A stretch of DNA of 33,084 nt, taken from assembly GCA_026388735.1 (NCBI GenBank), contig JAPLJG010000058.1, positions 1-33,084 on the forward strand, written 5' to 3'. Below the pieces are notes generated by a model. It was not told the origin of the DNA. It made no database searches and was given only the letters and a program-made list of their open reading frames with translations. Below, in pieces: positions 4,166 through 21,002 of the stretch (positions are counted from its first letter, which is position 1; each line of letters begins with the position of its first letter). The translations under genes were made by a program, and so were the position numbers. This DNA comes from Deltaproteobacteria bacterium (GTDB lineage: Bacteria; Desulfobacterota; Desulfobulbia; Desulfobulbales; Desulfurivibrionaceae).

Positions 4166-5613
4166 TCATCCCAAGCCCGGCCATCCCGCGCCATAAGCGC
4201 CACCGAGGCCACCGGTCCCCAGGTTCCTGCCGGATACGGCATGGGCGCCTCGTTACTGGCCTGCCAGGCATCTTGGATGGAGTCAATCCAGGTCCAGGCC
4301 TGCTCCACCTCATCCCGCCGGATAAAGAGGGACTGGCTCCCCTCCAGGGCCGCCAGCAGCAACCGCTCGTAGGCGTCGGCAACATGCTCCGCCTGAAAGG
4401 CCTCGGAAAAACTCAAATCCAGGGTAGTGCGCTGCAGCTTTACCCCAGAGGCAATACCCGGCACCTTGTTCAGCATCTCGATCTCCACCCCCTCGTTGGG
4501 CTGGAGACGGATGATCAATTTGTTGGAAGGGAGATTCTTGTAACTTTCCCGGAAGATATTGTGGGGCAGCCGCTTGAAATAGATCACCACCTCGGAGAGC
4601 TTTTGGGTCATGCGCTTGCCGGTGCGCAGATAGAAAGGCACCCCGGCCCAACGCCAGTTGTCGATATCCACCCGGAGGGCGACAAAGGTTTCCGTGAAAC
4701 TCCGGGGGTTGCCCGCCTCCTCCTCGTGGTAGCCCGGCACCGGCCCGCCCTTGAGAAACCCGGCGCTGTACTGGCCCCGGACGGTTTTTTCCTCGACATT
4801 GTCGCGGGTGATGGGACGCAACGCCTTGAGAACTTTAAGCTTTTCGTTACGGATGCTTTCGCTGCCCAAGGTGACCGGCGGCTCCATGGCCACCAGGGTG
4901 AGGATCTGCAAGAGGTGATTCTGCACCATGTCGCGGAGCTGGCCGGACTTGTCGAAATAGCCCCAACGGCCTTCGATTCCCACCTCCTCGGCCACGGTGA
5001 TCTGCACATGGTCGATGGTGGTGTTATCCCAGTTGGTGGTGAAGATGGAGTTGGCAAAGCGGAGGGCCACCAGGTTGAGCACCGTTTCCTTGCCCAAGTA
5101 ATGGTCGATCCGGTAGACCTGTTTTTCCTGAAAAAACTCGGCCACCGCATCGTTGATGACCTTTGAGGAGGCCAGATCAGTGCCCAGGGGTTTTTCCAGC
5201 ACCACTCGGGTCTGTTCGGTGATCAACCCGGCCTGGGCCAAGCCCTTGCAGATGTCGCCATAGATGGAGGGCGGCACGGCGCAGTAGTTGACCATCACCC
5301 GTTGGGCGGGATCGATAATCTCGCAGAGCTTGCTGTACTGATCATGACTGGCAAGATCGATCTGCACATAGCGCAGACGCTTGGCAAACCGCTGCCATAC
5401 CTGGGCATCCACCTCCTCCTTCATGAAGGTGGCAAGACTTTCCCTGGCCATGGTGACATACTCGTCGGCAGCCATCTCCTTGCGCGCCACCCCGACAATC
5501 CGCAAGCCCGGTTCAAGGAGCCCGGCCTTATCCAGCTGGTACAACGAAGGCAGCAGCTTGCGGGTGGCCAGATCGCCATGGGCTCCGAACACGACAAAAT
5601 CACATGGTTGCAT
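4162..5613 (-). CDS. zwf: Glucose-6-phosphate 1-dehydrogenase
   Basis: Oxidises glucose 6-phosphate to 6-phosphogluconolactone with NAD(P)+, the entry step of the Entner-Doudoroff and oxidative pentose phosphate routes. The protein has 483 residues, normal for Zwf. It shows the N-terminal dinucleotide-binding loop GAHGDLATRKLLPSLY (10-25), EKPLGTDL (140-147), the substrate/catalytic signature RIDHYLGKE (168-176) and the DMVQNHLLQ and YLRTGKRM segments. ATG 5613 is chosen because GGGAGA lies upstream and the Rossmann strand starts at once; the frame is open 22 codons further without family similarity. First gene of the zwf-pgl-edd operon. A weak minus-strand promoter candidate (TTGACT at 5710-5705, poor -10) lies about 95 bases upstream. 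The 5614-5886 gap to the divergent phosphatase holds only T-rich sequence and no further gene. Confidence 0.95.
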   Translation of the reverse strand: MQPCDFVVFGAHGDLATRKLLPSLYQLDKAGLLEPGLRIVGVARKEMAADEYVTMARESLATFMKEEVDAQVWQRFAKRLRYVQIDLASHDQYSKLCEIIDPAQRVMVNYCAVPPSIYGDICKGLAQAGLITEQTRVVLEKPLGTDLASSKVINDAVAEFFQEKQVYRIDHYLGKETVLNLVALRFANSIFTTNWDNTTIDHVQITVAEEVGIEGRWGYFDKSGQLRDMVQNHLLQILTLVAMEPPVTLGSESIRNEKLKVLKALRPITRDNVEEKTVRGQYSAGFLKGGPVPGYHEEEAGNPRSFTETFVALRVDIDNWRWAGVPFYLRTGKRMTQKLSEVVIYFKRLPHNIFRESYKNLPSNKLIIRLQPNEGVEIEMLNKVPGIASGVKLQRTTLDLSFSEAFQAEHVADAYERLLLAALEGSQSLFIRRDEVEQAWTWIDSIQDAWQASNEAPMPYPAGTWGPVASVALMARDGRAWDE

Positions 5614-5886
5614 TTTTTTCTCCCTGAGCTTCTCGGCGCTTTTCAATGGAACAACCCGGCAGACGCCAGCTTCTCTCAAAAGCCTACGGCTGTTTCAAAA
5701 ATGAAGTCAAGGAAAATATGGGCGAACCCCGCACAACCTGCGCTTAAGATAAGCAACTACAGCCAGCCATAAAATAATCCATCTTTTTTCGTCCTCTTCA
5801 TTTTTTCTTCATTTTCCTACTGTAAGTTCCTGTGACCATCCCGAATGATCAGGGCGAATTGAATGAGAGGAGCCACTACAAAAAAT

Positions 5887-6603
5887 ATGAGACAAGCAAC
5901 GCGCTATACACCTGCACCATTTTCTGAACAGGCGGAGTTTTTCGTAACCATCGATTTTGACGGCACCATCAACGAGTTGGATGTAACGGACGCCGTCATT
6001 AAAAAATTCGCCCGGCCTGGCTGGCAGGAGGCGGAAAAACTCTGGGAAGAGGGGCGCATAGGCTCAAGGGAGTGCCTCGCGCGCCAAATGGCGCTTATAG
6101 ATGTGCCTCTGGAACACCTTGTAGAGTACGCCTGCACGCACCCGATAGATCCCGCCTTCCCTGATTTCATGAGATTGCTCCGGGAGGCCGGCATACCCTT
6201 CGCCATAATAAGTGATGGGTTCAAGCCAATCATCAATGGAATCCTGGCAGAAGCCGGGTTTTCAGATTTACCGGTCTATGCCAACGATCTGCTTGAGGAT
6301 GCAAGCGGACTCAAAACAATCTTCCCCAACACCAGCGGTGTGTGTCAATCAGGCACCTGCAAATGCAAGACTGCCGATCTGCTGGCCGAAGGGCTTCCCA
6401 TCGTGCATATCGGCGATGGCCGCAGCGATTTTTGTATCTCGAGAATGGCGATGCATGTCTTCTGCCGAGGCAAACTCACCGGCTACTGCGTTGAAAACGA
6501 GATCCCGCACTCGACGTTCACGGATTTTCAGGGGGTGCAAAAAGCCCTCGAAACTTTTTTAAACGGCGAGGCACTCTTGTCCCTGAAGCAAAATGCAGCA
6601 TAG
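5887..6603 (+). CDS. MtnX-like HAD-IB phosphatase
   Basis: A 238-residue haloacid-dehalogenase phosphatase. Motif I is TIDFDGTI (nucleophile Asp23 and acid/base Asp25), motif II is AIISDG, a Lys occurs in CKCKTADLL (motif III position), and motif IV is HIGDGRSDFCIS. The subfamily resembles MtnX (the methylthioribulose salvage phosphatase) and SerB/ThrH-type HAD-IB enzymes. True MtnX function is doubtful because no other methionine-salvage gene lies nearby. ATG 5887 is taken because AGAGGAG precedes it, although the 14-base spacing is long; in-frame ATG 5863 has a poorer ribosome binding site. The next gene, 146 bases on, is a class III aminotransferase, suggesting a pathway where an amino compound and a phosphate ester are handled together. 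The substrate is unknown. Confidence 0.8.
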   Translation: MRQATRYTPAPFSEQAEFFVTIDFDGTINELDVTDAVIKKFARPGWQEAEKLWEEGRIGSRECLARQMALIDVPLEHLVEYACTHPIDPAFPDFMRLLREAGIPFAIISDGFKPIINGILAEAGFSDLPVYANDLLEDASGLKTIFPNTSGVCQSGTCKCKTADLLAEGLPIVHIGDGRSDFCISRMAMHVFCRGKLTGYCVENEIPHSTFTDFQGVQKALETFLNGEALLSLKQNAA

Positions 6604-6749
6604 GGCAGTCACGTTCTTTCGTCAACCAACACCCCAGGGGCTTGGCTGCATGACCTATGACTGATCACCTCCGCTGTCACGACACCCAGTAATCAATAAA
6701 CTTGTTAGCCTATCGCTCTGAATTAATACCTTAAAAAGGAAAACCTCTC

Positions 6750-8132
6750 ATGGAACATGACGAACTCACCACAAAAGAACTTCTGGAACTTGAGGCCGAG
6801 TACTGCTCCTACGGCGATACAGTTCACTATCTCAAAGATCCCATCATCTTTAAACGCTGTGATGGTTCTTGGATGTTCGACCTTGATGAACGGCCGTATC
6901 TGGACATGCAGATGTGGTACTCCGCAGTCAATTTCGGCTACCGGAACCGGGAGATTGAAGAGGCCCACAACAAACAGATGGCCATGCTCCCGCAGGTGGC
7001 TTCCCAGTACCTGCATAAGGAAAAAATCCTTCTTTCCGCCACCATCGCCAAAGAAACCGAAAAACGATTCGGGGAAAAAGGACGGGTGCATTTCAATGTC
7101 GGCGGGGCCCAGGCCATCGAAGACAGCATTAAGGTCGTCAGAAACTTCAAGCACGGCAAATCGTTGATGTTCGCCTTCATGGGCGGCTATCATGGGCGGA
7201 CACTTGCCGCCACCGAGATCACCAGCAGCTTCAGGTATAGAAAACGATTCGGTCATTTCGCCAATAGAGCGACATTTATACCCTTCCCCTACTGTTACAG
7301 GTGTTTTTACGAAAAGGACCGCAAAACCTGCGACTATTACTGCGTCAAGGAGTTCGAGCGTCTTTTCGAGACCGAATACTACGGGGTTATAGACACCAAG
7401 GACAATGAGGTCGAATACGCCGCCTTCTTTGTGGAACCCCTGCAGGCCACAGGCGGATATATCGTGCCGCCGCCCGAATATTTCAAACGATTGGAGCAGG
7501 TGCTGAAAAAGTACAATATCCTTCTGGTGGACGACGAAATACAGATGGGTTTTTACCGAACCGGCAAGCTCTGGGCAATGGAGCACTTCGGTGCCACACC
7601 CGATGTGGTCGCCTTTGCCAAGTCCCTGACCAATGGCCTTAATCCGCTCTCCGGCCTCTGGGCACGGGAGGAACTGATAACACCCCAGATGTTCCCCCCC
7701 GGCTCAACGCATTCCACCTTTTCCAGCAATCCTCTGGGAACAGCGGCGGGTCTTGCTGCAATGAAATACATGAAAACCGCCAACCTTGAGGAGACCGTGC
7801 CTGAAAAGGGGGCATATCTCCTCTCCCGCCTGCGGGAGCTGCAAAAGAAATACCCCGTCATCGGGGATGTGGATGGACTGGGTCTCGCCATCAGGGTGGA
7901 AATGACCAAGGCGGACGGCTTTACCCCGAACCGGGAGCTGACCGATGCCATCTTCCAAGAAGGTATGGCGGGCAACATACGACTCAATGGCCAGGAATAC
8001 GGCCTTGTTCTGGATGTAGGAGGGTACCACAAAAATGCCTTTACCCTGGCGCCAGCCCTGACCATCAGCTACGAGGAAATGGACCTTTTTATCGGACTTT
8101 TTGAAACCCTGATTAAAAGATGCAACGCGTGA
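6750..8132 (+). CDS. Class III PLP aminotransferase with four-Cys insert
   Basis: A 460-residue fold-type I class III (ornithine/GABA-like) aminotransferase. Key features: NVGGAQAIEDSIK (about 116-128), GGYHGRTLAA (145-154) for PLP ring and phosphate contacts, DDEIQMGFYRTGK (261-273) with the Asp that pairs with PLP nitrogen, and AFAKSLTNGL, where Lys291 should form the Schiff base. An unusual insert has cysteines at 182, 185, 194 and 198 (C-x2-C-x8-C-x3-C), suggestive of a metal site or disulfides; I recall related Cys patterns in some archaeal-type class III enzymes. It starts at ATG 6750 behind an AAAAAGG purine stretch. It is probably functionally linked to the HAD phosphatase upstream. 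Donor and acceptor cannot be told from sequence. Confidence 0.88.
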   Translation: MEHDELTTKELLELEAEYCSYGDTVHYLKDPIIFKRCDGSWMFDLDERPYLDMQMWYSAVNFGYRNREIEEAHNKQMAMLPQVASQYLHKEKILLSATIAKETEKRFGEKGRVHFNVGGAQAIEDSIKVVRNFKHGKSLMFAFMGGYHGRTLAATEITSSFRYRKRFGHFANRATFIPFPYCYRCFYEKDRKTCDYYCVKEFERLFETEYYGVIDTKDNEVEYAAFFVEPLQATGGYIVPPPEYFKRLEQVLKKYNILLVDDEIQMGFYRTGKLWAMEHFGATPDVVAFAKSLTNGLNPLSGLWAREELITPQMFPPGSTHSTFSSNPLGTAAGLAAMKYMKTANLEETVPEKGAYLLSRLRELQKKYPVIGDVDGLGLAIRVEMTKADGFTPNRELTDAIFQEGMAGNIRLNGQEYGLVLDVGGYHKNAFTLAPALTISYEEMDLFIGLFETLIKRCNA

Positions 8133-8141
8133 GCGGCGATT

Positions 8142-8230
8142 GAGCCTCTTGCAAAAGCAAGCAGGAAGGCAGAATTGGGACTGCCCCATCATTTTCTGAG
8201 GCTGTCCCAATTCCATTTTACAAGAGCCTC
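8142..8230. repeat. 89-bp MITE-like imperfect palindrome
   Basis: The outer arms 8142-8156 and 8216-8230 are inverted with 13 of 15 matches, and the inner arms 8172-8181 and 8204-8213 are a perfect 10-bp inverted pair around a 22-base loop. The two sides are unequal, with 15 extra bases on the left. It lies between the aminotransferase and cfa. It looks like a small non-autonomous transposon or REP element, and could also end aminotransferase transcription. Confidence 0.55.
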
Positions 8231-8279
8231 GGTATGGCATTTTTTTTAATTTGATCCAAAATATGAGGAGAAAATAATC

Positions 8280-9509
8280 ATGTTATGGGGATGGGGTTTA
8301 AAGACGCTGATTAAGCGCGGCCACTTGACTGTGACAGACGCCAATAACCGGGTTCACCATTACGGTGTTTCAGATGGCGCTCCGGCGGTGTCCATTCGTC
8401 TGCGCGACCGCGCGCTGCACTGGAAGCTGGCGCTTAATCCGGGCTTATATTTCGGCGAAGCTTACATGGATGAGACCTTGCTCATTGAATCCGGCAGCCT
8501 CCATGATCTGCTCACCTTGTTTGCCATCAATCTTTCCCAAGCCAATCCATCCAGGCTTGATTCTCTGGTAGAGGGCGTGGATTTTCTTACCAGGAACTGG
8601 CAGCAGTATAATCCAATTGCGCGAGCCTCGGCAAATGTCCGTCATCATTACGATCTCTCTGATGAACTTTACAATCTGTTTCTTGATGCAGATATGCAAT
8701 ATTCCTGCGCCTACTTCCCCGACGGGGATACAAGCCTGGAGGAAGCGCAATATCTGAAAAAACGCCATATAGCAGCCAAGCTCCGTCTTGAGCCAGGCAT
8801 GCGTGTCCTCGACATTGGTTGTGGCTGGGGCGGGATGGCGATCTATCTGGCCAGAGAAACCGGGGTGGAAGTGACCGGGCTTACCCTTTCAGTCGCGCAG
8901 GCGGAAAAAGCCCGCGAGCGGGTGAAAAAAGCCGGGCTGGAAAAACAGGTGAAGATTTGCCTGCAGGATTACCGCGAAGAAAAAGGCGTCTACGACCGCA
9001 TCGTGTCAGTCGGCATGTTCGAGCATGTTGGCATTGGGCATTACCCAGAATTTTTTGCTAAACTCAGATCGCTGCTCAAACCTGACGGCGTAGCGCTGCT
9101 GCACTCCATCGGTCGTGTTGACGAACCGGGGACGGCCAATCCCTGGCTGCGCAAATATATCTTCCCGGGCGCATATGCGCCGTCGTTGTCGGAAGTCTTG
9201 CCGGTCATCGAGCTTGGCAAATTGTGGGTAACGGATATTGAAATCCTACGTCAACATTACGCACGCACCCTCAGCGAATGGCATAAGCGCTTTAATGCCA
9301 GGCGCAAGGAAGTCGCGGCCATGTACGACGAACGCTTCTGCCGTATGTGGGAATTTTATCTGCTCAGCGCGGAGATGGAATTCAGCTATATGGGAACAAT
9401 GGTCTTTCAGATTCAGCTTACGCGTGATATCGACGCCTTGCCTGTGACCCGTGATTACATGCTGGATTGGGAGCGCTCGCGGGATTGCCCGACCGGTAAG
9501 CAGGAGTAG
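8280..9509 (+). CDS. cfa: Cyclopropane-fatty-acyl-phospholipid synthase family
   Basis: An S-adenosylmethionine-dependent methyltransferase that adds a methylene group across cis double bonds of membrane phospholipid acyl chains. The 409-residue protein has the Cfa plan: an N-terminal lipid-binding region (LHWKLALNPGLYFGEAYMD), then RHHYDLSDELYNLFLD and YSCAYF (141-146), and the SAM-binding loop VLDIGCGWGG (about 176-185) followed by TGLTLSVAQ. The C-terminal part has HYARTLSEWHKRF and the MWEFYLLSAEMEF region with the conserved Glu. It starts at ATG 8280 behind GAGGAG. A hydrolase gene follows 8 bases after the stop, so the two are co-transcribed. Other mycolic-acid-type Cfa relatives use different lipids, so the exact substrate is inferred. 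Confidence 0.9.
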   Translation: MLWGWGLKTLIKRGHLTVTDANNRVHHYGVSDGAPAVSIRLRDRALHWKLALNPGLYFGEAYMDETLLIESGSLHDLLTLFAINLSQANPSRLDSLVEGVDFLTRNWQQYNPIARASANVRHHYDLSDELYNLFLDADMQYSCAYFPDGDTSLEEAQYLKKRHIAAKLRLEPGMRVLDIGCGWGGMAIYLARETGVEVTGLTLSVAQAEKARERVKKAGLEKQVKICLQDYREEKGVYDRIVSVGMFEHVGIGHYPEFFAKLRSLLKPDGVALLHSIGRVDEPGTANPWLRKYIFPGAYAPSLSEVLPVIELGKLWVTDIEILRQHYARTLSEWHKRFNARRKEVAAMYDERFCRMWEFYLLSAEMEFSYMGTMVFQIQLTRDIDALPVTRDYMLDWERSRDCPTGKQE

Positions 9510-10445: not shown

Positions 10446-12290
10446 ATGTGCGGAATAGTCGGTTATGTGGGGCAGCGGCATGTGCTGCCCATTCTGTTGG
10501 AAGGAATGAAGCGCCTGGAGTACCGGGGCTATGATTCAGCCGGAGTGGTGTATGTGCACGGCGGCAAGCTCCAGAAGCACCGGGCCGCAGGCAAGCTCGG
10601 CAAGCTGGAAGAGTTGCTGGAGACGGTGCGGGACCGCGACAGCCATATCGGGTTGGGCCATACCCGCTGGGCCACGCATGGTGCGCCCTCTGAGCTCAAT
10701 GCCCACCCGCACTGCGATTGCAGCGGCGATCTGGTTGTGGTCCATAACGGCATCATCGAGAATTATCACACCCTTCGGGAGGAGTTGCAATCCCGCGGGC
10801 ATGTCTTTCGCTCGGAAACCGACACCGAGGTTCTCGCCCATCTTATTGAAGAACAGCTTCCCGGTGGTGATCTGGTCAAGGCGGTGCGCCAGGCCCTGAA
10901 AAAGGTTCAAGGCTCCTACGCCATCGGGGTTTTGTGGGCTGGTCAGCCGGACAGGCTAGTGGCGGTGCGGAACCAAAGCCCCCTGGTTCTGGGGCTTGCC
11001 GAGGGGGGCGGCTGCCTGCTGGCCTCGGATATCCCGGCCCTGCTCCCCTATACCAACCAGGTGGTTTTTCTGGAGGATGGGGAGCTTGCCGTCCTGAAAC
11101 AGGGGGACTGGCAGGTGATGGGTCTGGCCAATGGCAGAAAGATTGCCAAGAAGATCAAGACCATCGAGTGGAACGCGGCCATGGCCGAGAAGGGCGGGTA
11201 CCGGCATTTCATGCTCAAGGAGATCTTTGAGCAGCCTCAGGCCATCCTCAACACCTTCCGGGGGCGGCTCGATCCGGAAACCGGCAGGGTGCAGCTGCCG
11301 GAAATAGGCCTGAGCCCTGCGGAGCTGAAAAAAATCAGCCGCATCTCCCTGGTGGCCTGCGGCACCTCCTGGCATGCGGCCCTGGTGGCCAAATACTGGC
11401 TGGAAAAATGGGTGGGCATCCCTGTTGAGGTGGATATCGCCTCGGAGTTCCGTTATCGCCGATTGCTGCTGGACGAAACCGTGATGGTGGTGCCCATCTC
11501 CCAGTCCGGGGAAACCGCCGACACCCTGGCGGGCCTCAGGTTGGCCAAGAAGATGGGAGCCAAGGTCATCGCCATCTGCAACGTGCTGGGCAGCACCATC
11601 ACCCGGGAAGCGCACGGTACGATTTACACCCATGCCGGGCCGGAGATCGGGGTGGCCTCCACCAAGGCCTTTACCTGCCAGCTCACGGCTCTGCTGCTGC
11701 TCACCCTTTTCTTAAGCGAAATCCGCAAAGGTATGCCCGCCAAAGCGCGGAAAGCTCTGGCCCATGCCCTCGTTGAACTGCCTGCTCTGATTGAACAAGA
11801 ACTGCCCCGGTTGCAAGAGGAAACAGCCCGCATTGCCGAAGCCTTTGCCCAGAGCCAGGATTTCGTCTACCTGGGCAGGGGGAGCAATTTCCCCATTGCT
11901 CTGGAAGGGGCGTTGAAGCTCAAGGAGATATCGTACATCCATGCCGAAGGCTATGCGGCCGGGGAACTCAAGCACGGCCCCATCGCCCTTATCGACCGGG
12001 ACATGCCGGTTCTGGCCCTGGCCCCCAAGGACAGCGTCTATGAAAAGGTCATTTCCAATGTGGAGGAGGTAAAGGCTAGAAACGGCAGAATCATTCTCGT
12101 CGCCAATGTGGGCGACACAAACTGCCAGCGCATCGCCGAGCAAGTGATCACGGTGCCGGTCTGCCACGAGGAGTTGAATCCGATTCTCTTTGTCCTGCCC
12201 TTGCAGTTGTTGGCCTATGAGATCGCCATCCTGCGCGGCTGCGATGTGGACCAGCCTCGAAATCTTGCCAAAAGCGTTACGGTGGAGTAG
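10446..12290 (+). CDS. glmS: Glutamine-fructose-6-phosphate aminotransferase (isomerizing)
   Basis: Makes glucosamine 6-phosphate from fructose 6-phosphate and glutamine, the first step to UDP-GlcNAc, peptidoglycan and LPS. The 614-residue length is typical. The start MCGIVGYVG places Cys2 as the N-terminal nucleophile after Met removal; RWATHG and HNGIIENY complete the class II glutaminase domain (about 1-220). Two SIS domains follow, with ISQSGETADT, GVASTKAFT, and EGYAAGELKHGPIALI near the active-site loop, and the normal C terminus NLAKSVTVE. The start is fixed by the nucleophile rule and by GGAGC at 10436. tatC follows 43 bases later. Its product could also supply UDP-GlcNAc to the GT2 fusion encoded at 16840-20283. 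Confidence 0.97.
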   Translation: MCGIVGYVGQRHVLPILLEGMKRLEYRGYDSAGVVYVHGGKLQKHRAAGKLGKLEELLETVRDRDSHIGLGHTRWATHGAPSELNAHPHCDCSGDLVVVHNGIIENYHTLREELQSRGHVFRSETDTEVLAHLIEEQLPGGDLVKAVRQALKKVQGSYAIGVLWAGQPDRLVAVRNQSPLVLGLAEGGGCLLASDIPALLPYTNQVVFLEDGELAVLKQGDWQVMGLANGRKIAKKIKTIEWNAAMAEKGGYRHFMLKEIFEQPQAILNTFRGRLDPETGRVQLPEIGLSPAELKKISRISLVACGTSWHAALVAKYWLEKWVGIPVEVDIASEFRYRRLLLDETVMVVPISQSGETADTLAGLRLAKKMGAKVIAICNVLGSTITREAHGTIYTHAGPEIGVASTKAFTCQLTALLLLTLFLSEIRKGMPAKARKALAHALVELPALIEQELPRLQEETARIAEAFAQSQDFVYLGRGSNFPIALEGALKLKEISYIHAEGYAAGELKHGPIALIDRDMPVLALAPKDSVYEKVISNVEEVKARNGRIILVANVGDTNCQRIAEQVITVPVCHEELNPILFVLPLQLLAYEIAILRGCDVDQPRNLAKSVTVE

Positions 12291-13540: not shown

Positions 13541-13587
13541 CACAAGTGTACTGTTAAAATTAAACCGAGGTGAGGACAGAAACCGCC

Positions 13588-14268
13588 GTGAGAATCCTTA
13601 TAGTAGATGACGATCCCGATATTCGCGACCAACTTGTCAGGCTACTTACCGGACAAAAATACATCGTTGAAATTGCCGCGGATGGGGAGAAGGCTCTAGA
13701 CAGGATTTTCAACCAGCCCTTCGACCTAATCATCCTCGATATCATGATGCCCATAAAAGACGGGCTGTCCGTGTTACAAGAAATCCGCCAAGACAAGATC
13801 GGCACTCCGGTCCTCCTGCTGTCCGCCAAGAGCGAGATCAATGACAAGATCAAAGGGCTCGACCAAGGAGCGGACGATTACCTGGCCAAGCCGTTTTCTG
13901 CCTCCGAACTGCTGGCGCGGATGCGTGCTCTGCTCAGGAGAGGCTCAGAACACGCCGCTCCCACCCTGGATATCAAAGACATCCACCTCAACACGGTTAC
14001 CCGCGAGGTAACAGTCGGTAGCAATATCGTCCTGCTAACGCCCAAAGAATTCGCCATTCTCGAGTTTCTCTTCTACAACAAAAACCGAACCATATCGCGC
14101 TTCAGCCTCGCCGAGCACGTCTGGGGGGAAGATTTTGATCCCTTCACCATGTCCAATTACATCGATGTACACATCAAGAATTTGCGACGAAAAATCGGCG
14201 ATACCGATGGCAGCATTGTCCGGACGATTCGGGGGGTCGGCTACATCGTCACGGGAGAGGGCCAATGA
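13588..14268 (+). CDS. OmpR/PhoB-family response regulator
   Basis: A 226-residue DNA-binding response regulator. The receiver domain (1-115) has the acidic pocket VDDDP, phospho-acceptor Asp51 in LIILDIMMP, and Lys101 in YLAKPFS. The C-terminal winged helix (about 130-224) has LTPKEFAILEFLF and the recognition helix region NYIDVHIKNLRRKI, ending RTIRGVGYIV. GTG 13588 is preferred because the receiver core begins at once and a GGTGAGG element lies 12-18 bases upstream; GTG 13570 is in frame but would overlap that site. The kinase gene begins inside the last codon (ATGA overlap at 14265-14268), so the two are translationally coupled. Target genes are unknown; emrE immediately upstream is one candidate. 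Confidence 0.93.
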   Translation: MRILIVDDDPDIRDQLVRLLTGQKYIVEIAADGEKALDRIFNQPFDLIILDIMMPIKDGLSVLQEIRQDKIGTPVLLLSAKSEINDKIKGLDQGADDYLAKPFSASELLARMRALLRRGSEHAAPTLDIKDIHLNTVTREVTVGSNIVLLTPKEFAILEFLFYNKNRTISRFSLAEHVWGEDFDPFTMSNYIDVHIKNLRRKIGDTDGSIVRTIRGVGYIVTGEGQ

Positions 14269-15782
14269 AAATTCGCCACAGGATCACCCTTTGGGTTGCA
14301 GGCGCTGGGCTGTTTACCAGCCTTGTCTTCTCCTTGGTGATCTTGTGGGAAATGCACGATCAGCCTCTGGCGATTCTGGATTCACAATTGAATACCGTGG
14401 CGCATACACTGAGCAAGCGACTGTCCACGCTACGAAAACCAGTGGAAGATGCGCAGGCACACATGCTGCTTGTTTCTTCAGAGCGCTACTGGGTCAAGAT
14501 TTACGACCAGGATCAGCGCGTGGTTTTTCAATCCGACCTATCCAGGGCCGCCAACCTCCCCTTGAAAAAAGACCATATGGGAGAGCCCTATATGGTCGAC
14601 ACACACATCCCGAAAGAAGTTAGCTACCTCTATCAGGATGATGACGGCGAGGTCACGTTCAGAACTTTGGTAATTGCTGAAAACATCGCAGGGACGCCTT
14701 ATCTGATCCAAGTCGCAAGGCCAATAGCAGATTTTGAAGAAGAGGTTTTTGATTGGCTGGAAGCGATCGATATCGGCCTGATCATCTCGAGCATTATTTT
14801 GATGTGCGTGAGTTATATTCTGGCCGGTCGAATCGTGCGACCCATCGCCGCCATCAACCAGCTTGCCCGCGAAATCAACGAAAACACCCTGGAAAAAAGA
14901 ATCCCCCTGGGGAAAAGCCGCGACGAAATTTTTGAGCTGAGCGAATGCCTGAACCAAATGTTCAATCGGTTGCAGTTCTCTTTTTCCCGCCAGAAGAAAT
15001 ATCTTGCCGACGCTTCCCACGAGTTGAGAAGCCCCCTCACCACCCTGAGACTTTTTTTTGAGGAAGCCTCCCAGCGCACGGATTTACCTGCCGCCTTTCT
15101 GGAGCAGATCAAAGCCCAGGAACACAATGTGTTGCGAATGGATCGCCTGGTCAAAACACTTCTCAATCTGTCGATCCTAGAGATCAAGGCTTCTCTGCCC
15201 ATGGAACCATTCAGCCTAACGGATCTGGCCAAGGTAGTATTGGAAGATTTTACGCCGATTATAGAAAAAGCGAAAATCCATCTTAAAGCCGCTCTTCTCC
15301 CACATCTGAATATGAGGGGTGATGAGGACATGATCCGCCGGACACTGATCAATATTCTTGACAATGCGGTTAAATACAATAGGGCAGGAGGCGAAATAGA
15401 GCTTACGGTTGCCGAGAAAAATAATGATATCTGTATATCCGTGTACAATACCGGACCGGGCATCCCCAAGGACGAGCTAGAAAAAGTGTTCGAGCAGTTC
15501 TACCGGGTGGAAAAATCCCGTGCCGTCATAAATGGTGGGGTAGGGCTTGGGCTGGCTATTGTCAAAGAGATCGTCCGGCTGCATAACGGCAAGATTTCCA
15601 TTGACAGTGTCCTTGGCTCGTGGACACGGATCGATATGACCTTTTCGCAGAAGTGGGCAGAAAGCCCTGCCCTCAGGGGGAGGCTAGGGCTTTCTGCCGC
15701 AGGCGAAATTGCGGGCGGTCGAGCCAGTACGCGGCAGCCACCCCGCTGCGGTAGGCATCAAGGGCCTCGGGGGAGGAATTGA
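14265..15782 (+). CDS. HAMP sensor histidine kinase with abnormal C-terminal tail
   Basis: Membrane sensor kinase partner of the preceding regulator. It has an N-terminal span (about 8-28), a periplasmic sensor domain of roughly 135 residues (ERYWVKIYDQDQRVVFQSD), a second span (about 166-187), a HAMP linker, and the phospho-acceptor His252 in DASHELRSPLTTLR. The ATPase domain has an N box (INILDNAVKYN), G1 (NTGPGIP), F box and G2 (GGVGLGLAIV). The domain naturally ends near residue 464 (RIDMTFSQKW). The frame then continues 41 residues without a stop, through a 12-bp stem-loop that starts at 15657 and antisense into the GH26 gene. That tail (Arg/Gly/Pro-rich) looks like read-through after loss of the original stop codon. 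The kinase core seems intact. Confidence 0.9.
   Translation: MKIRHRITLWVAGAGLFTSLVFSLVILWEMHDQPLAILDSQLNTVAHTLSKRLSTLRKPVEDAQAHMLLVSSERYWVKIYDQDQRVVFQSDLSRAANLPLKKDHMGEPYMVDTHIPKEVSYLYQDDDGEVTFRTLVIAENIAGTPYLIQVARPIADFEEEVFDWLEAIDIGLIISSIILMCVSYILAGRIVRPIAAINQLAREINENTLEKRIPLGKSRDEIFELSECLNQMFNRLQFSFSRQKKYLADASHELRSPLTTLRLFFEEASQRTDLPAAFLEQIKAQEHNVLRMDRLVKTLLNLSILEIKASLPMEPFSLTDLAKVVLEDFTPIIEKAKIHLKAALLPHLNMRGDEDMIRRTLINILDNAVKYNRAGGEIELTVAEKNNDICISVYNTGPGIPKDELEKVFEQFYRVEKSRAVINGGVGLGLAIVKEIVRLHNGKISIDSVLGSWTRIDMTFSQKWAESPALRGRLGLSAAGEIAGGRASTRQPPRCGRHQGPRGRN
15657..15697. terminator. 12-bp stem-loop between convergent genes
   Basis: Perfect arms 15657-15668 and 15686-15697, with a further GCC/GGC pairing inside. 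The left arm begins exactly where the kinase catalytic domain ends, and the right arm covers the last codons and stop of the convergent GH26 gene. It looks like a shared bidirectional terminator, though no long U-tract follows on either strand. It lies inside the open frame of the kinase. Confidence 0.6.
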
Positions 15783-16824
15783 CCCGGAGATTGCTGTAGC
15801 TCCCGTCCGTGTTTTCCCAGCGTTCATGCCAATAGACCGCAGCCTTGACCCTGGGGTATTTCGTCTGTAAATCAGAGAAAGCCTTGGCGATAAATTCTGC
15901 CTTGTTGGCGGGGGGGGATTCAGCAACGCCCCATTCCGCCAGGATCAGAGGTTTTTTCGGGTCCAGCTTACAGATTTCCTGATAGGGGGCATCCATCACA
16001 TGAGCAAAAGAGTTCCAATCCTCGGATTTGAGCATCTTGCCATACACGCTCAGGCCCAGCCAGTCCACATAGTCCGCACCAGGGTAGTAATGGGCCATCA
16101 TGTTCCAGGGCGCATGGGGCATGGTGTAATGGTTGGCCTGAAAACCCCAGAGGATATTGTCCGCCTTCCGCGCCCTTGCCCGGTCAACCACATAGCGATA
16201 GGCCTGTTTCACCAACTCAGGCCCGGCGTAGAGGGGCTGGCCGTCTTTCTGACCAATAATCGTGCCTCCCCCATAATAGACGCCTGACCAAGGAAACCAG
16301 GTGCCGTTCATTTCCACCCCCCAGGCCACCAGCATGGGCTTGCCGTAGCTCCGGGCCGCGTCGGCCCATTGATCGATATAGGTGTCCCACTTGCCCGCCA
16401 GGATATCGGGCAGGTTGAAGCGATCCGGCCCGCGGTCTTCGGCGTAGGGCCGGTCCCAGGGCGACCAGTAGATCAGCGGGATCGCCCCATAGCTCGAAAC
16501 GATGCGCACCGTTTTGGCGGGAAAGGCCTGTTCCCCCCAGAAATTGCCAAAGGCCACCACGGCAAGATGCTTGCCGGTCATCTTCTCAAAGGCGGTTATG
16601 GCATCGTAGGTGACGTTGTCCTCACCCTCGCCGAAATCCACATATGCCCCGGTGTAGGCCCCTTTACTGGGCATCACGAGTTCTTGCGGACCTTGGTCCT
16701 TGGCCCGGACAGTTTCCCCTGGTTTACAGCCAGCGCCCAGAGCCAAACAAAAGAGCACCACCGCAACACAGCCAAGCACTGTTTTCGTTCTGGCGGTTGA
16801 ACCTCTCGTAAGCATTGCCTTCAT
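15673..16824 (-). CDS. GH26-like glycoside hydrolase lipoprotein
   Basis: A 383-residue exported lipoprotein: signal peptide with lipobox ALGAGC (Cys33), then a single catalytic domain resembling glycoside hydrolase family 26 (beta-mannanase and related). The acid/base Glu is seen in WGVEMNGTWFPW (Glu171, the family HEMNG-type site with Val for His), and the nucleophile in LILAEWGVAE (Glu297). WGFQANHYTM and YYPGADYVDWLGLSVYG are also GH26-like. It follows the synthase-deacetylase fusion by 15 bases on the same strand, so the two form an operon. It probably trims or releases the polysaccharide made by the neighbour, outside the cytoplasm. GH26 also includes endo-mannanases and lichenases, so the substrate is unknown. 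Confidence 0.83.
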   Translation of the reverse strand: MKAMLTRGSTARTKTVLGCVAVVLFCLALGAGCKPGETVRAKDQGPQELVMPSKGAYTGAYVDFGEGEDNVTYDAITAFEKMTGKHLAVVAFGNFWGEQAFPAKTVRIVSSYGAIPLIYWSPWDRPYAEDRGPDRFNLPDILAGKWDTYIDQWADAARSYGKPMLVAWGVEMNGTWFPWSGVYYGGGTIIGQKDGQPLYAGPELVKQAYRYVVDRARARKADNILWGFQANHYTMPHAPWNMMAHYYPGADYVDWLGLSVYGKMLKSEDWNSFAHVMDAPYQEICKLDPKKPLILAEWGVAESPPANKAEFIAKAFSDLQTKYPRVKAAVYWHERWENTDGSYSNLRVNSSPEALDAYRSGVAAAYWLDRPQFRLRQKALASP

Positions 16825-16839
16825 GATCCCTGCCTTTCC

Positions 16840-19800
16840 TCAAGCTTTATAAGTGACCGAGGCGGTACGGTCGAGTTTGCCCCAGCCGACCAACACCCCT
16901 TTGCTCGCTTTGATAATAGACTTCAGCACCGCATAACTTAACACCGGTCGATAGATGAACCGCATGGGCAGAACCAGCCAGATTTGAGACAAAGGCTCCC
17001 TTTCGATGAGGCAGGCAACTGCAGCCAGCAACAAGTCGGCCCCGAGAAAAACCAGAAAATAAAAATAGAGAATACTGTTGGCCGGGCTCAGCAGCAGCGA
17101 TAAAAGCAGAATAGCATCGATAATCGGCCCGAGCGCCACCAGCAGGATATTGAAAAACCAGGCACTCGGCAGACTGAACCAACCCAGCGCCCTGTATTTT
17201 CTATCGAAAAGCAGATCCCGGTGTTTCCACAGACACTGCAAGGTGCCGTACGCCCAACGGAACCGCTGCTTGGCAAAGGTTCTCACGGTTTCAGGGGCCT
17301 CGGTCCAGGCCACAGCCCTGGGGGCATAGCAAATTTTATGACCATACCTGTGCAGACTCAAGGTAAGGTCGGTATCCTCCGCCAGGGTCTCGGTACTGAT
17401 CCCGCCGGCCGCGAAAACCGCGCTCTTTTTGAAGGCGCTGACCGCCCCCGGCACCACCGTAATGCAGTTGAGCAAATGATAGGCCCGCCGATCCAGATTA
17501 AAGCCGCATGTATATTCAAGGGACTGGAACATGGCGACAAGCGTCTTGGGATTGCCAACCCTGGCCCGCCCTGAAACCGCAGCCACGGCAGGATCAGCAA
17601 ATGGCCGGACCAACTCCGCAATGGTGTCGGACGCAAATTGGGTGTCAGCATCCAGACTGATGACAATCTCGTGGCTCACCGCGTCAAATCCGGTCTTCAA
17701 GGCCATGGCCTTGCCCATATTGATCTGCCTGAGGAGATGGATGCGCTCCTCGCTTTGCGCCATCCCGGCCACGATCTGAGCAGTTGTGTCCTTTGAACCG
17801 TCATCGACCACCACCACCTCGATCTCGCCGGGGTAGGTGCTGTCCAATAATGCCCGTAATGTTTGGCCGATAACCTTTTCTTCGTTATAAGCGGCAATCA
17901 GGATGCTTACCGGCGGCCAGACGCCAGAAGCCGGAAGCCAGCCCGGCAATCCGGCATCGCCAGCCCTTCGGCTCCGAATCGCCAGCCAGGCCACGCTTAG
18001 CGTCCTTGCCACAACCAGAGCGGTGGCCACGATCATAAAGGCCCAGAAGAATTGCGCCACCGCATGGATGGCCGCGAAGCCGGCTTCGCTCACCGCCCTG
18101 GACATGGACCGCTGGCTCTGGGGCACCGGCGGCATCAATTGCTCCAGCGGAATCCCAAGCAGCGCGGAGAGGGAAAGGATGTTGTCTCCCCTGGCCTGTA
18201 GGTAATCGATGATCTTGGGCAACGCCTCGATGGTCTGGCTCCGATCCCCGCCCGCATCATGGAGCAACACGATATTCCCGCCCTGCTGGCGGCCCCTTTT
18301 TATGTTTTCAACCATGGCCGCAACCCCTGGCTGCGACCAGTCCTCCGGGTCGATATCCTCGGTAACGGTGATGTAGCCAAGTTTCTGGGCAAGCTTGATG
18401 GGGACCAGCTCTTCCGGATCATGGGGGTTGGTGTCGGCGTTATAGGGCGGCCTGAAAAGAATGGTAGAATGCTTGGTGATGGCCTCGATCAACCGCTGGG
18501 TCGCATTGAATTCCAGGTAGGCCCGCTCCTCGGAGACCAGGGCGATATTCGGGTGGGTATAAGTGTGGACGCCAACCGTATGCCCCTCGCGGACGATGCG
18601 CCGGACAAGGTCGGGATATTTCTCCATGTTCGTGCCAACCATGAAGAAGGTGGCGCTCACCCCCTTGGCTTTAAGAATATCGAGAATCTTCGGGGTCCAC
18701 TTGGGATCAGGGCCGTCATCAAAGGTGATGGCCACGGAGTCCTTTGCTCCCTTCCCCTGATGCACGATGGTGAGATAGCTGGGAAATTTCTCATAGCGTT
18801 CGCTCACCGGATCCTCAGGGTCACCGTCTTTATCGCGCATAATCCGCCGCGCCCCATCGGCGCGCTCGTCCGCCATGGTGATGAAATTTCCCCTGCCGAT
18901 ATGGGCTATTGTCCCGCCGGGGCTGATGGTCTCCAAGGTCGCAAGATTTTCCCGGGTAAGGAGTTTGGCAGTATCCAGCTTCAGGGCTTGCCAGATTCCA
19001 GGGTCTTCCGTGCCAAGCCGCGATATGGCGATACCGCCGACATGATACGCCCTTCCGGCCTTGAGCTGGTTCAAGAAGGTAACCGCATCCAGGAACCAGA
19101 GGGTATGGGGTGCGCCGGAGTCCTCATAATCGAAATGCGGATTGTAGGTGGGCGCGTCAAACTCACAGGAAGTGAGCGAGGACCTGCCAGCCCGGCTCAT
19201 CACGTCCTGAAAACGAACGGTCTCCGCCTCATTTTCCCCCTCGGTCCAATCGTAGCCATAGGCACCAAGGGCCAGTACCCACTGCGACGATTCCCCGTAT
19301 TCAATAATGGTATCGAGCCAGCCATTGAACCATTCTGCTGAGGCAATCGGGCCTGGCGGGTCGGACTCGGAATTCTCGTCATGGAGCATGGCGACGAAAT
19401 GATCGACATGCTCGGCAAGGTTGTCCAGATCGAGGACTTTCAACTCCCTGCCCATGGGGACGCAAAGCCACAATTCCATTCCCTCGGCATGAAGCACCGA
19501 AGCAAGCTTGTTCAACAAGGCGGTCATGGCGCCCCGATAAGACGGGTCAACCTGTTCCCAGTCGATGACAACCCCGCCCGCGCCCATCCCCTTCAGGCGC
19601 CCCTTGAGGTCGACGACAAACTGATCCTGTCTGGTAGCTGGCCCGTTGATAAGTCCCTCAACCACCTCGGGCCGCCAGACCCCTTCCCCGCCCATGTTGC
19701 GGAGAAGCGGCATAAGAACGAGGCCCCGATCCTTGACCAGATCAAGAACCTTCTGCTCCGTGACGGCTTTGACACCACCGCGGCCATCCTCAACGGTGAG

Positions 19801-20283
19801 CCAGTCCGGGCAGAGATGGGTCAATTTATCGGCATTGGCCTTGAGGGAATCAAAGCTGCCTGGGTCCCAACTTTCATAAAAACCAAGCCGGACCTCCTGA
19901 ACATAGGCGAGTTGAGGCCTCGGCTCTTTTCTCAAGGACGAGACCACGCCCGATTGATTGGCAAGGAATGGGAAAATCGCCGGGCCGCCGCTATTGCCCT
20001 TGGCAAAATTCAGCCACAACGGCTTGGTCGCCAGTTGCCTGGCCTGATGTTCCTTTTTCTGAAGGGTCTTGAGTCGGGACTTGAGTTGCTGCACCCCAGG
20101 CGGGAGGGTAAGCTGCGAAGGGAGAAATAGGGTCTGCGTGAAGAGAATCACCCCGATAAAAAAAAGAAGCCCCGCGACAAACATGACCAGACGGAGCCTG
20201 GGCCAACGTTTTCCAGGTGGCAGTTCATTTTTTGGCAAGCCGATGTGTGCAAGGGGCTGAAGATATTCCATGCCGCAAATCAT
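16840..20283 (-). CDS. GH18-like / NodB deacetylase / GT2 synthase fusion
   Basis: A 1147-residue membrane protein with three enzyme domains. After a cytoplasmic N terminus and a span (30-53) comes a GH18-like domain (about 120-460) with GGVVIDWEQVD (Asp241, Glu243). A CE4 polysaccharide deacetylase (about 510-705) has ITFDDGPDP (Asp522, Asp523), HTYTHP (His573, His577), RPPY and a C-terminal LLHDAGGDRSQT. After another span (about 737-767) a processive GT2 domain (790-1020) carries VVVDDGS, SLDADT, ETLAEDTDL and QRFRW, followed by C-terminal spans. This equals PgaB (deacetylase plus hydrolase) and PgaC (synthase) of poly-GlcNAc export joined in one chain, so a partly deacetylated beta-linked HexNAc polymer is likely. 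The start is uncertain: ATG 20283 and ATG 20271 both lack a clear ribosome binding site. First gene of the operon with GH26. Confidence 0.9.
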   Translation of the reverse strand: MICGMEYLQPLAHIGLPKNELPPGKRWPRLRLVMFVAGLLFFIGVILFTQTLFLPSQLTLPPGVQQLKSRLKTLQKKEHQARQLATKPLWLNFAKGNSGGPAIFPFLANQSGVVSSLRKEPRPQLAYVQEVRLGFYESWDPGSFDSLKANADKLTHLCPDWLTVEDGRGGVKAVTEQKVLDLVKDRGLVLMPLLRNMGGEGVWRPEVVEGLINGPATRQDQFVVDLKGRLKGMGAGGVVIDWEQVDPSYRGAMTALLNKLASVLHAEGMELWLCVPMGRELKVLDLDNLAEHVDHFVAMLHDENSESDPPGPIASAEWFNGWLDTIIEYGESSQWVLALGAYGYDWTEGENEAETVRFQDVMSRAGRSSLTSCEFDAPTYNPHFDYEDSGAPHTLWFLDAVTFLNQLKAGRAYHVGGIAISRLGTEDPGIWQALKLDTAKLLTRENLATLETISPGGTIAHIGRGNFITMADERADGARRIMRDKDGDPEDPVSERYEKFPSYLTIVHQGKGAKDSVAITFDDGPDPKWTPKILDILKAKGVSATFFMVGTNMEKYPDLVRRIVREGHTVGVHTYTHPNIALVSEERAYLEFNATQRLIEAITKHSTILFRPPYNADTNPHDPEELVPIKLAQKLGYITVTEDIDPEDWSQPGVAAMVENIKRGRQQGGNIVLLHDAGGDRSQTIEALPKIIDYLQARGDNILSLSALLGIPLEQLMPPVPQSQRSMSRAVSEAGFAAIHAVAQFFWAFMIVATALVVARTLSVAWLAIRSRRAGDAGLPGWLPASGVWPPVSILIAAYNEEKVIGQTLRALLDSTYPGEIEVVVVDDGSKDTTAQIVAGMAQSEERIHLLRQINMGKAMALKTGFDAVSHEIVISLDADTQFASDTIAELVRPFADPAVAAVSGRARVGNPKTLVAMFQSLEYTCGFNLDRRAYHLLNCITVVPGAVSAFKKSAVFAAGGISTETLAEDTDLTLSLHRYGHKICYAPRAVAWTEAPETVRTFAKQRFRWAYGTLQCLWKHRDLLFDRKYRALGWFSLPSAWFFNILLVALGPIIDAILLLSLLLSPANSILYFYFLVFLGADLLLAAVACLIEREPLSQIWLVLPMRFIYRPVLSYAVLKSIIKASKGVLVGWGKLDRTASVTYKA

Positions 20284-20320
20284 ACGCCAATCACCAAGGA
20301 AAAGCTAGCTGCCTGAGAGC

Positions 20321-20374
20321 GGGAATCGTTGCCGAGAAGGGAATAAAATCCTTCCCAAACCAGCAATGGTTCCC
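20321..20374. repeat. Nested inverted repeat in the divergent intergenic region
   Basis: Outer arms 20321-20332 and 20363-20374 match at 10 of 12 positions; an inner 5-bp pair (20336-20340 with 20350-20354) lies within. It is located between the divergent fusion gene and exonuclease gene, 14 bases before the exonuclease ATG. It could be a 5'-UTR structure or a symmetrical operator, or be incidental. Confidence 0.35.
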
Positions 20375-20387
20375 GTATATAGACTCC

Positions 20388-21002
20388 ATGCACACCACCG
20401 ACCCTCGCCCTGGCTTTGCCCAGCGGATGACCAAAGAAGAAATAAACACCTGCCCCGTGCGGAGATGGGAGGGGGTGGTCCACGTAGTCCGCACCCCTGC
20501 CGAGTTGAGCCAGGCTGTCCGCGCCCTGGCTACGGAGACCATCCTCGGCTTTGACACGGAAACCCGGCCCGCCTACCACAAGGGCGAGAGCTACCTGCCT
20601 TCGCTCCTGCAACTGGCCGGGGAAAAAGAGGTCTTTCTTTTTCAGCTGAAACCGCTCGGCCTGCCCGGCCCTTTGCGGGAAATCCTTGCCAACCCCAAGG
20701 TGATCAAAGCGGGAGTCTCCTTGGCCTATGATCTCCAGGAACTGCACCATCTGGCCCCGTTCAAACCGGCAGGCTTTGTGGATCTGGGCAATCTCGCCAA
20801 AAAGGCCGAAATAAAAAACCACGGCCTGCGTGGGCTGGCCGCGGTTTTGCTGGGCTTTCGCATCGCCAAGGGGGCGCAGACCTCGAACTGGGCCAGGGAT
20901 ATTCTCGCCCCGACCCAGATCCAGTATGCAGCCACCGACGCCTGGGTGGGAAGGGAGTTGTATCTGAAATTACAGCAGGATGGAGAGGAGACAAGCCGCT
21001 GA
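20388..21002 (+). CDS. DEDDy 3'-5' exonuclease (RNase D-like)
   Basis: A 204-residue single-domain nuclease of the DnaQ-like/RNase D fold. Exo I is GFDTETRP (Asp56, Glu58), Exo II is AGVSLAYDLQEL (Asp115), and Exo III is YAATDAWVGREL (Tyr180, Asp184; Y-x3-D, hence DEDDy). The N-terminal TKEEIN..PVRRWEGVVHVV pattern is typical of bacterial 3'-5' exonuclease-domain proteins without an HRDC domain, so it is not full-length RNase D. ATG 20388 is chosen from homologous-looking N-terminal sequence; ATG 20427 is an alternative, and neither has a good ribosome binding site. It is divergent from the polysaccharide fusion gene and apparently monocistronic. Substrate (RNA or DNA) unknown. Confidence 0.88.
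   Translation: MHTTDPRPGFAQRMTKEEINTCPVRRWEGVVHVVRTPAELSQAVRALATETILGFDTETRPAYHKGESYLPSLLQLAGEKEVFLFQLKPLGLPGPLREILANPKVIKAGVSLAYDLQELHHLAPFKPAGFVDLGNLAKKAEIKNHGLRGLAAVLLGFRIAKGAQTSNWARDILAPTQIQYAATDAWVGRELYLKLQQDGEETSR

Follow-up and report, generated by a model that had tools for sequence, protein, structure and literature searches.

In Streptomyces lividans, the MatB protein fuses a CE4 deacetylase to a GT2 synthase. The accessible part of PMC5972031 reports that its product is poly-N-acetylglucosamine (PNAG), as judged by antibody F598 and dispersin B, and that a PgaC-like GT2 is combined in it with a PgdA/NodB-like CE4. Fusions of a glycosyltransferase with a deacetylase were described in 2020 in Gram-negative bacteria lacking pgaA and pgaD (PMC7112194, in excerpt). 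Here we describe a related locus on a 33,084-nucleotide stretch of DNA from a Deltaproteobacteria bacterium (contig JAPLJG010000058.1, hereafter the window), where a single unbroken open reading frame (ORF) encodes GH18-like, CE4 and GT2 domains in one 1147-residue protein and is followed by a gene for a GH26-family protein. We hold, with moderate confidence, that the locus specifies a MatB-like synthase-deacetylase for a poly-N-acetyl-aminosugar, most likely a PNAG-like one, in which the GH18-like domain binds the chain and the GH26 protein cuts it. A MatB-like CE4-GT2 synthase is of a known kind; the new points are the remodelled GH18 module and the GH26 partner. The features of the two genes are as follows.

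16840..20283, minus strand: GH18-like/CE4/GT2 fusion of 1147 aa (ORF, domain profiles and model).
20125..20208, minus strand: first membrane helix, residues 26-53 (hydropathy; helix in the model).
18964..19899, minus strand: GH18-like TIM-barrel domain, residues 129-440 (PF00704, 34.4 bits; 5jh8, Z 35.9).
19555..19578, minus strand: remodelled GH18 active-site strand GGVVIDWE, residues 236-243, Glu243 being the proton-donor position (alignments).
18760..18963, minus strand: small beta module separating GH18 from CE4, residues 441-508 (strands in the model, which places the module at 459-510).
18136..18759, minus strand: CE4 (NodB-type) deacetylase domain, residues 509-716, with every motif kept (profiles and alignment).
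17956..18108, minus strand: long helix with the second membrane span, residues 726-776 (hydropathy; model).
17224..17916, minus strand: GT2 processive synthase domain, residues 790-1020 (profiles, alignment and BLASTP).
16900..17190, minus strand: C-terminal membrane helices, residues 1032-1065, 1070-1093 and 1098-1128 (model; hyaluronan synthase fold match that includes GT2).
15673..16824, minus strand: GH26-family secreted protein (possible lipoprotein), likely cotranscribed partner, 15 nt downstream of the fusion, with Glu171 and Glu297 kept.

The fusion is real; its parts are ordinary and their combination is unusual. The original prediction had put the three domains between membrane spans of one chain, each with its catalytic motifs, and had left the strand (minus) unstated. 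The reading frame is indeed uninterrupted, and the AlphaFold2 model (48 sequences; mean predicted local distance difference test score 87.3, predicted template modelling score 0.74) shows, in order, the helix at 26-53, the GH18 barrel, the beta module, CE4, the helix at 726-776, GT2 and three C-terminal helices. Hydropathy and the model agree on spans at about 26-53 and 726-776, the latter close to the predicted 737-767. Basic residues K25, R26, R29 and R31 lie ahead of the first span and RSRR behind the second; together with hydropathy, these flanking charges support a predicted topology in which the GH18-like and CE4 domains are outside and GT2 is inside, as had been proposed, with CE4 not in the cytoplasm. 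Pfam reports CE4 (PF01522, 2.3e-35, residues 511-616) and GT2 (PF13641, 1.3e-31, residues 790-1013). GH18 goes unreported when the whole protein is scanned at E 0.01; the domain scanned alone scores 34.4 bits with PF00704 against a cut-off of 29.6, and it matches solved GH18 sequences (5jh8, E 5e-21). The predicted fold of residues 129-439 superimposes on the chitinase 5jh8 (Z 35.9, root-mean-square deviation (rmsd) 1.8, 304 residues aligned), so the first domain is GH18-related by profile and by fold.

The statement that each domain retains its catalytic motifs holds for CE4 and GT2. All five CE4 motifs are present in the window (TFDDGP, HTYTH, RPPY, DPEDW and LLHD), including the metal-binding Asp/His/His and the catalytic Asp and His. 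In a family alignment of 98 members, D522, D523, H573, H577, R611, H675 and D676 of CE4 are unchanged in 97 of 97, and D828, D878, D880, E969 and D970 of GT2 in 98 of 98; the DD, DxD, ED and QxxRW motifs of GT2 occur in 98/98 or 97/97, with D827 being N in 11. These kept motifs suggest that CE4 is an active deacetylase. Its best-scoring models are PdaB, PgdA and NodB, and no PgaB or IcaB model is among those listed; its fold evidence consists of Foldseek rows, and the VIA listing barely covers it. The best NCBIfam model for GT2 is PgaC_IcaA (193.4 bits, versus 88 for NodC and 72 for CelA), a score under the 422.3-bit cut-off of this PgaC/IcaA equivalog (TIGR03937), and GT2 is 36% identical to E. 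coli PgaC over 280 aa (3e-41). Residues 745-1147, membrane helices included, match Chlorella virus hyaluronan synthase (Z 34.3, rmsd 2.9, 379 residues).

The same statement fails for GH18, whose fold is kept while its active site is remodelled. The window sequence GGVVIDWE retains Asp241 and Glu243, the latter aligned with the Glu of the 5jh8 DFE motif. The canonical Asp236, Asn/Asp239, Tyr301 and Trp421 are replaced by Gly, Val, His and Ser, so that the full DxxDxDxE-type motif with its Tyr and Trp is absent. We take the Tyr and Trp to belong to the -1 subsite, and Tyr301 presumably has a role in N-acetyl recognition. With the motif incomplete, although Asp241 and Glu243 are kept, the domain has a GH18 fold and is no more than a putative GH18 enzyme. 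Position 243 itself is E in 60 of 93 family members; the other 33 carry Q, G, N, A, S, C, T, R or W there, and a tree of the CE4 and GT2 parts alone requires a minimum of 11 changes at this position. The idea of an intact GH18 hydrolase is thus not borne out.

The CE4 and GT2 tree contains a well-supported clade of 71 rows, comprising the window, Desulfobacterota and Verrucomicrobiota, and another group of 25 from Bacillota, Acidobacteriota, Armatimonadota and two Gammaproteobacteria. We scored Asp241, Glu243, Tyr301 and Trp421 in 68 clade members and 25 others. All four sites are canonical in 1 of the 68, compared with 19 of the 25, and Glu243 is replaced in 29 of the 68 clade members, whose CE4 and GT2 sites are unreplaced. 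The ratio of nonsynonymous to synonymous substitution rates (dN/dS; simple Nei-Gojobori, few independent pairs) for GH18, CE4 and GT2 is 0.140, 0.106 and 0.115 in the set from the window's genus, 0.061, 0.039 and 0.051 in a Verrucomicrobia set with Glu changed to Gln, and 0.192, 0.129 and 0.153 in a Desulfobacterota set lacking the Glu; in most sets compared, the beta module (441-508) lies above the neighbouring domains. The low GH18 values indicate purifying selection on the domain and no decay. Since the barrel is retained while the catalytic acid is dispensable, the domain is most likely a chain-binding module. Chitinase-like lectins provide a parallel for a GH18 barrel serving in binding, and several of them are in the fold-match list for the fusion model. 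The window's genome has no second copy of the fusion (its other matches are to GT2 only) and no free GH18 (PF00704, 0 matches at 1e-5). In the genome of locus L059 (Candidatus Contendobacter odensis, G100), two long ORFs carry GH18 domains scoring 91 and 47 bits, and canonical and remodelled forms may therefore coexist there.

The architecture is widespread and already in databases, as the original prediction had supposed. A scan of genome contigs found at least 80 fusion loci in at least six phyla; judged by record titles, the best 80 belong to Desulfobacterota, Verrucomicrobiota, Acidobacteriota, Bacillota, Armatimonadota and a few Gammaproteobacteria, although several of the records are bins and possibly misnamed. 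Further cases, in Sphingobium, Sulfitobacter, Deinococcus and Prevotella, are in plasmid records. The plasmid proteins of Streptomyces and Kocuria match the CE4-GT2 half only (residues ~508-1147, in one piece, 36.5%), and the Kocuria protein is annotated as 'bifunctional polysaccharide deacetylase/glycosyltransferase family 2 protein'. Beside the Kocuria protein lies a separate chitinase gene (L116:5942-6925), and a DUF3131 protein gene adjoins the CE4-GT2 protein in Sulfitobacter (L114:8126-10543). One Verrucomicrobia locus carries two fusion genes with a GH26 gene in between (L054:311-3811 and 4905-8327).

Neither this family-wide occurrence nor the adjacent GH26 gene had been part of the original prediction. 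The GH26 protein scores 43.3 bits with PF02156 (cut-off 20.2), and its AlphaFold2 model (mean local score 89.4) has a GH26 fold whose nearest solved structure is the lichenase CtLic26 (2bv9/2cip, E 1e-27; about 31% identity). The catalytic-type residues Glu171 and Glu297 are both present in 35 of the 35 GH26 sequences covering them. A simple pattern detects a lipobox-like motif in 20 of 36 sequences, some with mispredicted starts; in the window the pattern fell on an improbable Cys, which makes the assignment of the protein as a lipoprotein a guess. Of 58 relatives, the window's genome counted, 18 have GH26 and 17 have the fusion, with GH26 present in every one of these 17; in 16 of them the two genes are directly adjacent, one genome (G056) has both genes at contig ends, and another (G048) has GH26 without the fusion. 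These counts make GH26 an obligate-looking partner in the relatives. Over 81 loci (the window and the best 80 of the scan), GH26 lies downstream on the same strand in 35, of which 28 are within 100 nt or overlap by ORF prediction and seven are at 0.8-2.8 kb. In the 41 genomes without GH26 at the locus, a close homologue (E < 1e-100) is present in 16 of 17 from the clade and in 1 of 24 from outside it. GH26 is associated with the remodelled GH18 on raw counts (Fisher p 8e-13). To judge from sequence, the cutting step may have moved to this second protein, beside the remodelled GH18. Other conserved neighbours in Chthoniobacterales (glycerate kinase, GatB, chorismate synthase and the like) were read as ordinary synteny, and the GH26 gene of PMC13390465 was set aside because, in the portion of that article available, it sits in a Wzx/Wzy cluster, which is another system.

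How does the locus compare with the known systems? Like MatB of S. lividans/coelicolor, the window fusion joins an external CE4 to an internal GT2 by a membrane helix (predicted topology in the window); the likeness to MatB is by description, the sequences compared being the Streptomyces and Kocuria plasmid proteins. In the available text of PMC5972031, MatB has two named functional domains, with no GH18, and MatA as its partner, whereas the window fusion adds GH18 and is partnered by GH26. The fusions of PMC7112194 likewise place a glycosyltransferase and a deacetylase at the Gram-negative inner membrane without PgaA or PgaD; as that article's excerpt describes them, they have deacetylases of the PgaB/IcaB class and lack the PgaB hydrolase domain, in contrast to the NodB/PgdA-type CE4 and GH18-like domain of the window. 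E. coli PgaABCD shares a PgaC-homologous synthase, with deacetylation and a hydrolase step outside the inner membrane, but in the window the deacetylase is tethered to the synthase and the hydrolase-type folds are GH18 and GH26 rather than GH153. PgaB, the comparison originally chosen for the outer domains, was rejected as a homologue: the best BLASTP match to the E. coli protein is not significant (E 0.13), hhalign aligns only a 47-column stretch around TFDDG, and the window's genome has no match to the PgaB model TIGR03938 (cut-off 321.9 bits). The suggested search for pgaA and pgaD was negative as well; models of PgaA, PgaB and PgaD exceeded their cut-offs in 0 of 19 genomes, including the window's own draft (91.55% complete), with a positive E. 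coli control. TPR matches to the PgaA model lay below cut-off in 19 of 19 genomes and also in 12 of 14 controls, and are thus uninformative on PgaA. The YaaH/SleL/YdhD GH18 glycosidases share fold and overall sequence with residues 129-440; the window's clade differs from them in having replaced active-site residues and in having the barrel membrane-anchored in a synthase.

One interpretation of these results is the following. GT2 would polymerise UDP-N-acetylglucosamine at the cytoplasmic side and, to judge from its fold, might thread the chain through its own membrane helices like a single-chain hyaluronan synthase. CE4, kept outside by the second span and equipped with all its motifs, would deacetylate the emerging chain. 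The N-terminal GH18-like barrel, probably no longer a standard chitinase in the window's clade, would bind and guide it, and the secreted GH26 would do the cutting or control the length, a role suggested by its co-occurrence and catalytic residues, on a putative substrate. A PNAG-like product is the leading guess because GT2 is nearest PgaC/IcaA, CE4 is nearest PdaB/PgdA/NodB, and the same pairing in MatB makes PNAG.

Several points weigh against this interpretation. The CE4 and GH18 domains have relatives that act mostly on beta-1,4 bonds, a point against PNAG, and for GH26 the closest solved structure is that of a beta-glucan lichenase. The PgaA model identified no outer-membrane exporter in the 19 genomes. 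The original prediction knew of no characterised example; this does not hold for CE4-GT2 proteins, given MatB and the PMC7112194 fusions as partially available, but it stands for the full layout: among the matches listed from the open-access PMC subset there is no characterised GH18-CE4-GT2 fusion, and no GH18-bearing member has a known activity or product. Nor do those matches describe a GH26 partner of such a fusion, and PMC4928363, in the part seen, merely reports GT2 and deacetylase domains among those attached to GH proteins. The link between GH26 and GH18 amounts to about one deep branch: with three independent pairs the test is not significant, and we therefore do not claim joint evolution. 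Four loci outside the clade (L086, L087, L090 and L096, the last from an unsearched genome) lost Glu243, and no GH26 was found beside them. Finally, the window copy keeps Asp241 and Glu243, so its GH18 could still hydrolyse.

The main alternative concerns the polymer only and is compatible with the rest of the preferred explanation: the product might be a beta-1,4 chitosan-like polymer or oligomer and not PNAG. We regard this as possible, though doubtful. The CE4 models and a GH18 fold that is that of YaaH/SleL and chitinases speak for it; the far better score of GT2 as PgaC/IcaA than as NodC speaks against it, as does MatB, which by the available account in PMC5972031 shares the mixed signature yet makes PNAG.

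A second, equally tentative explanation is that the window's own copy is impaired by a deletion at the 5' end that took the native start region.

20214..20225, minus strand: junction missing about 120 nt relative to the close relatives L006, L007 and L008, a stretch that in these spans the start region and the first ~30 codons.

Nothing in relatives corresponds to the first 23 residues of the window protein. The missing stretch also holds a conserved N-terminal motif, which a pattern search detects in 68 of 89 full-length members but not in the window. Yet residues 24-1147 are 91% identical to L006, and the frame is open from an upstream in-frame ATG, which may still allow synthesis of a protein with a different beginning; the missing stretch could instead be an assembly error.

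It is unlikely that all three domains are active, with synthesis, deacetylation and hydrolysis in one chain. The retained Asp241 and Glu243, the 5jh8 alignment that sets Glu243 on the catalytic Glu position, and the canonical sites of most members outside the clade would fit such an enzyme, but the other four residues are all replaced in the window, and within the clade Glu243 has been lost where the CE4 and GT2 sites have not. Still less probable is a Glu-independent hydrolase that attacks deacetylated chain with one Asp, the mechanism put forward for PgaB (GH153) and its Asp474: the loss of Tyr301 fits lost N-acetyl recognition, Asp or Glu stands at 241 in 32 of the 33 members that lack Glu243, and in PgaB D474 is aligned to the catalytic Asp found in related families, the second catalytic residue being absent (PMC5933820, in excerpt), but carboxylate retention at 241/243 is within the expectation for independence (Fisher p 0.25).

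Around the two genes, glmS (10446-12290, plus strand), whose enzyme starts UDP-N-acetylglucosamine synthesis, lies a few genes away, with no evidence of co-regulation. An OmpR-type response regulator and a histidine kinase (13570-15782, plus strand) converge on the GH26 gene, whose end the kinase ORF overlaps by 110 nt. An RNase D-like 3'-5' exonuclease ORF (20217-21002, plus strand) lies head to head with the fusion gene and overlaps its 5' end, the start of the exonuclease ORF probably being placed too far upstream.

Returning to the preferred interpretation, a further and more speculative proposal is that in Desulfobacterota and Verrucomicrobiota GH18 turned from a module cleaving N-acetylglucosamine linkages into one that holds the chain (or is glucosamine-specific, GH153-like), while cutting passed to a co-inherited GH26 with a new substrate, a deacetylated poly-aminosugar. 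If this proposal is true, the locus would amount to an exopolysaccharide machine of two genes that does without PgaA, PgaB and PgaD. The fusion offers a candidate route by which lineages that have been little studied might make a deacetylated aminosugar polymer; the route is compact and widespread, and the search of relatives turned up no pga genes. Within this one protein family, GH18 ranges naturally from intact to Glu-less forms, and comparison of members may test what the hydrolase step does in PNAG-type secretion, a question that PMC7112194 leaves open in its available part. The GH26 partner is a candidate enzyme for degrading biofilm polymers.

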